64,000 nt of DNA, from the NCBI GenBank assembly GCA_013176395.1, contig JABMLP010000010.1, forward strand, positions 124,001-188,000, in the 5' to 3' direction. Below, in pieces: positions 40,679 to 40,873 of the stretch; position 1 is the stretch's first letter; the number at the start of each line of letters is the position of its first letter. The stretch comes from Venturia oleaginea (taxonomy: Eukaryota; Ascomycota; Dothideomycetes; Venturiales; Venturiaceae). The position numbers were made by a program, and so were the translations under genes. The notes beneath the pieces were generated by a model. It was given only the letters and a program-made list of their open reading frames with translations, searched no databases and was not told the DNA's origin.

Positions 40679-40693
40679 GCGTGGGTGGTTTAG

Positions 40694-40743
40694 GTTAGCG
40701 ATCCTTCCTTCTCCCACGCAGCCATCGAACTAACAATATCCAG
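40694..40743 (+). other. Spliceosomal-type intron 1 in tRNA-Gly (50 nt)
   Basis: Begins GTTAGC, has GAACTAACA as a near-perfect branch site and ends TATCCAG. It is inserted between tRNA positions 15 and 16, inside the A box. It also contains CCCACGC (40713-40719), the exact complement of the tRNA 5' acceptor strand. Confidence 0.75.
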
Positions 40744-40747
40744 TGGT

Positions 40748-40799
40748 GTGAGTACATTCTCCCCAACCCTTCCCATCAGGAATGCTAATGCATGAGCAG
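40748..40799 (+). other. Spliceosomal-type intron 2 in tRNA-Gly (52 nt)
   Basis: Begins GTGAGT, has TGCTAATGC as branch site and ends GAGCAG. It lies between tRNA positions 20 and 21, only 4 nt after intron 1. Confidence 0.78.
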
Positions 40800-40867
40800 A
40801 AAATCCGTGCTTGCCATCAGTTACAAGTTGCACGGGCCCCGAGTTCGATTCTCGGTCCACGCATTCC

Positions 40868-40873
40868 TTTTTT
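40868..40873 (+). terminator. Pol III terminator T6 after tRNA-Gly
   Basis: Six T residues begin 5 nt after the discriminator base, the normal place for RNA polymerase III termination. Confidence 0.8.

Follow-up and report, generated by a model that had tools for sequence, protein, structure and literature searches.

Can a nuclear tRNA gene carry introns of the mRNA kind, and would the spliceosome then take part in making a tRNA? In fungi, the canonical tRNA introns lie between positions 37 and 38 and are cut by the tRNA splicing endonuclease. The question is raised by a tRNA-Gly(GCC) gene that has such an intron and is, in addition, interrupted twice in its D-loop. This gene lies in the window, by which we mean the whole stretch of 64,000 nucleotides that was analysed (G000:C2:124001-188000), part of a 46.1-Mb genome in 61 contigs. 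One protein of the window shows 87% identity with its match in Venturia inaequalis, 89% in V. nashicola and 81% in V. effusa (82-85% of the query covered), which places the fungus in Venturia or close to it.

The gene occupies positions 40679-40863 of the forward strand. Exon 1 (40679..40693) provides the 5' strands of the acceptor stem and the D-stem up to position 15. It is followed, at the D-loop site 15/16, by a first ectopic intron of 50 nt (40694..40743; GTTAGC...CTAAC...CCAG), whose branch-like motif CTAAC (40730..40734) has its A 10 nt from the 3' end. A micro-exon of 4 nt, TGGT (40744..40747), also in the D-loop, separates this intron from a second one of 52 nt (40748..40799; GTGAGT...CTAAT...GCAG), in which the branch-like CTAAT (40785..40789) has its A 11 nt from the 3' end. 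Exon 3 (40800..40816) runs from the 3' strand of the D-stem to position 37 and contains the anticodon GCC. The canonical 37/38 intron of 12 nt comes next (40817..40828), with the tRNA splicing endonuclease as its expected cutter, and exon 4 (40829..40863) supplies the anticodon 3' strand, the T-arm, the acceptor 3' strand and A73. By the consensus of the two internal promoter elements, the box A sequence is split by intron 1 and the B-box sequence in the T-arm is uninterrupted. A T6 run resembling a Pol III terminator (40868..40873) starts 4 nt past the gene. All these features are on the forward strand.

Joining of the exons gives 71 nt, and 21 of 21 cloverleaf pairs are formed. ARAGORN makes no call on the unspliced gene, whereas removal of the two D-loop inserts yields tRNA-Gly(gcc) with a 12-nt intron; in the raw window, no tRNA was reported by ARAGORN (bacterial code) or by Rfam at the gathering score. 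A sequence-only reading of this locus had proposed a 71-nt tRNA-Gly(GCC) on removal of 40694-40743 and 40748-40799, with an extra 12-nt intron at 37/38, and proved exact to the base. The GT donors, CTAAC and CTAAT motifs and CAG acceptors that it described are present in both inserts, and the resemblance in size that it noted to local mRNA introns holds as well (50 and 52 nt vs 47, 51 and 50 nt). The Nik1-like kinase gene of the window contains mRNA introns of 47 nt (with CTAAC) and 51 nt (with CTGAT), and the PLM2-like gene contains one of 50 nt, GTTAGT...ACAG, without CTRAY. This benchmark of size and signal is small, consisting of three introns, two with CTRAY, and the Nik1-like introns were mapped by means of the repeat sequence itself, the named organisms among the 120 protein matches listed being bacterial.

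Two minor properties of the unspliced gene can be recorded here. The heptamer CCCACGC in intron 1 (40714-40720) would pair base for base with the acceptor 5' strand, GCGTGGG. A hairpin between the two was dropped as a feature, since pairing of this kind was seen in one of 22 inserts, with P = 0.05 by shuffling. The fold of the unspliced gene gave z = -1.25, an uninformative value.

A genome search with the joined window sequence found four tRNA-Gly(GCC) genes without ectopic inserts, on contigs C45, C16, C22 and C18. All four have a short 37/38 intron, which differs from that of the window gene in sequence and lies at the same site. The window exons are identical to those of C45:91281-91361 and C16:1059725-1059805 and differ from those of the C22 and C18 genes. 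Two further Gly(GCC) paralogues have a single insert at the exact site of window intron 2. One of them, on C60, has an insert of 53 nt (GT...AG) and exons identical to those of the window gene; the third interrupted copy, C22b, was found by a spacing pattern 462 bp from the C22 gene. A chance origin of the match in the window is therefore excluded, because its exons are those of two uninterrupted genes and its second insertion site is common to two paralogues. On the other hand, the window gene may be dispensable and need not be functional, since four genes without ectopic inserts exist. The sequence-only reading had tied the status of pseudogene to two findings together, several intact tRNA-Gly(GCC) genes elsewhere and no spliced reads from this locus; the first of these holds in this genome.

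Introns of the spliceosomal type in tRNA genes are spread across this genome and extend beyond the window gene. We found 17 tRNA genes with 22 ectopic inserts, for Gly, Arg, Ser, Pro, Leu and Cys, at sites in the D-arm region, the anticodon stem, the T-stem and the T-loop and in none of the 22 cases at 37/38. The number of genes is a lower bound, the Rfam tRNA search having scored 63 of 1697 candidates. Five genes with an insert in the T-arm were among its matches (Arg(TCT), two Ser(AGA), Ser(GCT) and Gly(CCC)). Leu(TAG) came from the pattern CTAA..AGGTTCGANYC (19 matches; read-backwards control, 33), and so did the Ser(GCT) gene of C15, which has two inserts, one in the anticodon stem and one in the T-arm. 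A search with Ser(GCT) added C23, interrupted at both C15 sites, C5, with an insert in the T-loop, and the degenerate copy C19. The two Pro(TGG) genes on C61 and C11 have two inserts each, at the end of the D-arm and at 15/16, the latter being the site of window intron 1, and the Cys(GCA) gene on C45 has one insert in the D-stem. In the pattern searches that added genes, total matches did not exceed those of the read-backwards controls (19 vs 33, 11 vs 130 and 30 vs 34), and the true genes among the matches were told by their tRNA context. A pattern for the D-loop CAGTTGG in a lengthened gene gave three matches (control, 9), none of them tRNA-like by eye in 80 letters. Copies without ectopic inserts are present for Gly(GCC), Ser(AGA), Ser(GCT), Pro(TGG) and Cys(GCA), and 13 uninterrupted comparator loci were picked as tRNA-like from 30 extracted (Ser, Cys, Thr, Asp, Val and Gly); the Pro(TGG) gene on C34 is a further uninterrupted comparator. 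Gly(CCC) and Leu(TAG), which came up in the Rfam and the pattern search respectively, were seen there in interrupted form only. As a separate observation, a Pro(AGG)-like gene (G000:C56:547448-547546) has an unusually long stretch 3' of the anticodon that does not start with GT and is perhaps a long 37/38 intron.

The inserts share the signals of mRNA introns. In all 22, both window inserts included, GT...AG stands at the exact exon boundary. The position of the cut is ambiguous by one to six equivalent positions per insert, and exactly one of them is GT-AG in every case; the chance of this for all 22 is about 10^-45 if the inserts are independent, which those at shared sites may not be. The donors resemble the extended 5' splice site of the fungal consensus (GTRNGT-like), with G at +5 in 20 of 22 and T at +6 in 15 of 22, and the commonest are GTAAGT, GTGAGT, GTATGT and GTCAGT (three each). 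The acceptors are TAG (11), CAG (8) and AAG (3). In 19 of 22 inserts, again including both from the window, a CTRAY motif places its A 10-18 nt before the 3' end, and three inserts have no match to it; 2000 dinucleotide shuffles gave a mean of 4.0 (sd 1.8) and a maximum of 11. For insert 2 of Ser C15 and the Leu insert, the search pattern itself included CTAA and AG, and with these two left out the count is 17 of 20. Lengths lie between 50 and 60 nt, with the single exception of 89 nt. The best reading of these features is that the ectopic inserts represent U2-type spliceosomal introns in Pol III tRNA genes. Very probably, at least 17 nuclear tRNA genes, the window gene among them, have such introns outside the anticodon loop.

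It might be argued that the inserts are instead ectopic tRNA introns of the sort known from Cyanidioschyzon, nucleomorphs and archaea, and are cut by the tRNA splicing endonuclease. Archaeal introns occur at 20/21, 25/26 and 53/54, and introns at other sites occur in some algae, according to excerpts of PMC4090602. The D-, anticodon- and T-arm introns of Cyanidioschyzon merolae, the Guillardia nucleomorph and Crenarchaeota, sometimes several per gene, resemble the present ones in location (PMC4090602 and PMC3978253, in the portions considered). In those portions the splicing endonuclease is credited with their removal, a bulge-helix-bulge (BHB) is given for archaea and C. merolae, and no GT...branch...AG signature is described. 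In our set, a strict BHB was found at 0 of 22 junctions, against a shuffle mean of 0.5 and maximum of 4, a count that applies to the strict form and has no positive control. Its absence alone does not exclude the endonuclease, because many introns of the Guillardia nucleomorph have no defined BHB, as stated in part of PMC3978253. Those introns measure 3-24 nt, as opposed to 50-60 nt (one of 89 nt) here (PMC3978253, same portion). It also speaks against cutting by the endonuclease that its pathway has no role for a GT...branch...AG signature, and that the canonical 37/38 introns taken from this genome do not have one (0 of 11 GT..AG, with borders as set here) and are 10-29 nt long. The window gene contains both kinds, its 12-nt 37/38 intron being unlike its ectopic inserts in position, length and signals. 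We regard removal of the ectopic inserts by the endonuclease as very improbable.

No group I or group II intron was matched by Rfam in the window at the gathering score, and self-splicing of these types was rejected because inserts of 50-52 nt are too short for a catalytic core. A mobile sequence common to the inserts was also considered and not found among the 22; the longest exact word that they have in common, compared among the inserts only, is 11 nt. Processing of a tRNA precursor by the spliceosome, as proposed for this locus, is strongly supported, as far as genomic signals can tell, by the GT-AG ends of 22 of 22 inserts, the branch motif in 19 of 22 and the strict BHB in 0 of 22.

A different objection is that the interrupted genes are pseudogenes, mRNA-type introns having settled in dead spare copies while the uninterrupted copies do the work. 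The five isotypes noted above that have copies without ectopic inserts fit this explanation, as do several defects. Ser C5 has one mispaired T-stem pair. A run of at least four T within 40 nt downstream is present at 14 of 17 genes and absent at Arg C6, Ser C5 and Ser C19. The Ser(GCT)-like C19 (G000:C19:172608-172666 and downstream), with its T-loop insert, has lost the acceptor 5' strand and is perhaps decaying. In view of the mispair in C5, the degeneration of C19, the substitution in Arg C20 described below and the three genes without a T-run, some interrupted copies may be decaying.

The exons, however, mostly speak against this explanation. With the inserts removed, ARAGORN gives the expected isotype for 17 of 17 genes. 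The mature parts are identical in the shared-site pairs Gly window/C60, Ser C15/C23 (81/81) and Pro C61/C11 (73/73), and they agree at 71/72 in Arg C6/C20, 77/81 in Ser C15 or C23 vs C17 and 73/81 in Ser(AGA) C20/C13. Beside these exons, the inserts of the identical-exon pairs and of Arg C6/C20 are 55-61% alike (55-65% for all 11 shared-site pairs, by gapped alignment), and the upstream flanks of shared-site paralogues are 40-51% alike. Insert similarity exceeds that of shuffles at P < 0.05 in 4 of 11 pairs, which indicates that the inserts have diverged and are not unrelated; for those four, common descent followed by deep divergence would fit better than independent insertion. Where exons do differ, pairing is kept across the introns. 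In Gly C22b, two acceptor pairs and one T-stem pair are changed and all are compensated, the acceptor strands lying in different exons, and in Ser C15, C23 and C17 two T-stem pairs differ from uninterrupted C12 and are compensated with the intron between the strands. The exon and intron anatomy, the splice and branch signals, the recognisable tRNA left after removal and the conservation of the exons can all be read directly from the DNA. Gene conversion could keep exons alike, but uninterrupted donors would be expected to erase the introns. Together with the T-runs at 14 of 17 genes, the splice ends kept in 22 of 22 inserts and the branch motif kept in 19, the identical or compensated exons, the many further genes of this kind and the Arg(UCU) genes, found in interrupted form only, weaken the pseudogene explanation, which we consider unlikely.

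AGA codons are read by tRNA-Arg(UCU), and they account for 43 of the 3244 codons counted in three open stretches of window sequence. The joined Arg(TCT) query gave two candidates, on C6 and C20, with an insert at one and the same site in the T-arm. Among 11 pattern matches (control, 130; three read in context and the rest by eye), no nuclear Arg(TCT) gene without an insert was found, and none was recognised among the 100 of 130 matches listed in another search (control, 190). These searches are not exhaustive, and the one with the joined Arg(TCT) sequence missed even the related Arg(CCT) genes. It is nevertheless likely, judging from the genomic matches, that the genome has no uninterrupted nuclear copy of Arg(UCU). 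Since both genes found are interrupted, decoding of AGA would need splicing of ectopic introns unless a gene was missed. The C20 gene (G000:C20:147032-147153) has A in place of the near-invariant U33 of the anticodon loop, which may leave C6 as the one good Arg(UCU) gene. We lean towards the view that the spliceosome would routinely, and in part indispensably, serve the maturation of Pol III RNAs in this fungus, tRNA precursors having up to two ectopic introns, in several genes alongside the one for the endonuclease, and translation depending on the spliceosome through an Arg(UCU) tRNA encoded in interrupted form only. Most of the 100 matches listed in the second of these Arg(TCT) pattern searches belong to a dispersed repeat containing CTTCTAAAGCCCAGCAAGAAGG, with dozens of near-identical copies on many contigs.

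How such a precursor may be processed is a pathway that we infer as a whole, from the polymerase, transcription and spliceosomal splicing to the order of steps and the function of the product. RNA polymerase III would transcribe the window gene through to the T-run. The spliceosome would remove the ectopic introns of about 50 nt by intron definition, one after another where exons are tiny; an exon of 4 nt flanked by two introns is hard for two spliceosomes to serve simultaneously. In the window gene, this removal would join the TGGT exon to its neighbours. Ligase joining and end trimming are regular steps of tRNA maturation. The tRNA splicing endonuclease and ligase would take out the 12-nt 37/38 intron, and end trimming and CCA addition would give a normal tRNA-Gly(GCC). 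The spliceosome thus probably helps to make tRNAs in this Venturia-like fungus.

It is also conceivable that the introns are spliceosomal and that the precursor is a Pol II read-through transcript, trimmed afterwards. Splicing is normally coupled to Pol II, and some copies have an interrupted promoter element, box A being split by window intron 1 and box B by the T-loop introns of Ser C5 and C19. Pol III transcription would better explain why T-runs stand close downstream of 14 of 17 genes and why the AG ends of the stem-side T-arm introns are followed by (G)TTCGA, so that the gene still contains a B-box-like RGTTCGA. Furthermore, Pol II is not strictly required for splicing, as indicated by fission-yeast U6, a Pol III transcript that can be spliced (excerpts of PMC10484740), and by an rRNA intron removed from a Pol I transcript in yeast (excerpts of PMC8527467). 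Origin of the precursors from Pol II read-through seems quite unlikely to us.

Spliceosomal introns are known in U6 and rRNA genes, and those in nuclear tRNA genes appear to be a new class. The U6 snRNA gene of fission yeast contains an mRNA-type intron that is spliced from the Pol III transcript during maturation (Tani and Ohshima 1989, 1991; PMC10484740, in part), as proposed here for tRNA genes. The same excerpts describe an snRNA whose intron lies near catalytic nucleotides and is thought to stem from reverse splicing (PMC10484740); tRNAs are no component of the spliceosome, and in the present genome many genes are affected, with up to two ectopic introns each. The 57-bp intron of lichen-fungus rDNA, which yeast splices out of a Pol I transcript, is likewise of the spliceosomal type and in a structural RNA gene, with the difference that the gene encodes rRNA (PMC8527467, in part). 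The portions of reviews considered locate the ectopic tRNA introns of eukaryotes in a red alga and in nucleomorphs and attribute them to the endonuclease (PMC4090602, PMC3978253), and a passage of one review describes the spliceosome as unused in tRNA splicing. No report of spliceosomal introns in tRNA genes was found among open-access papers by title or start of abstract, a scope that leaves subscription journals and bioRxiv preprints largely outside. If our reading is true, it would break the view of tRNA splicing as spliceosome-free and link translation capacity to splicing. Such genes would also be natural substrates for asking whether spliceosome assembly requires Pol II, and would lend themselves to the study of how small structured RNAs gain introns. 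Annotation by program will probably overlook or mislabel them: with inserts left in, ARAGORN did so for 15 of the 17 genes (11 without a call and 4 wrong; 2 right).

Two other Pol III RNAs were surveyed in the same genome. For 5S rRNA, with 47 of 2145 candidates scored, the 33 matches measure 106-121 bases, and no insert lengthens any of them. For U6 snRNA, there were seven matches (47 of 2907 candidates scored), three with inserts that resemble those of the tRNA genes and four of normal length, two of which were read. One insert of 52 nt, GTAAGT...CTAAC...CAG, lies between GAGAA and GATTAGC (C12:1178138-1178189), and another of 58 nt with the same signals lies between GCATG and GCCCC (C36:59898-59955). 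The third, of 49 nt (C2:1122109-1122157; GTCAGA...TAG, without CTRAY), is in a diverged copy, as would be expected of a pseudogene. If U6 copies do carry such introns, a component of the spliceosome would itself depend on the spliceosome. The C12 and C2 inserts both stand at GAA/GATTAGC, adjoining the ACAGAGA box.
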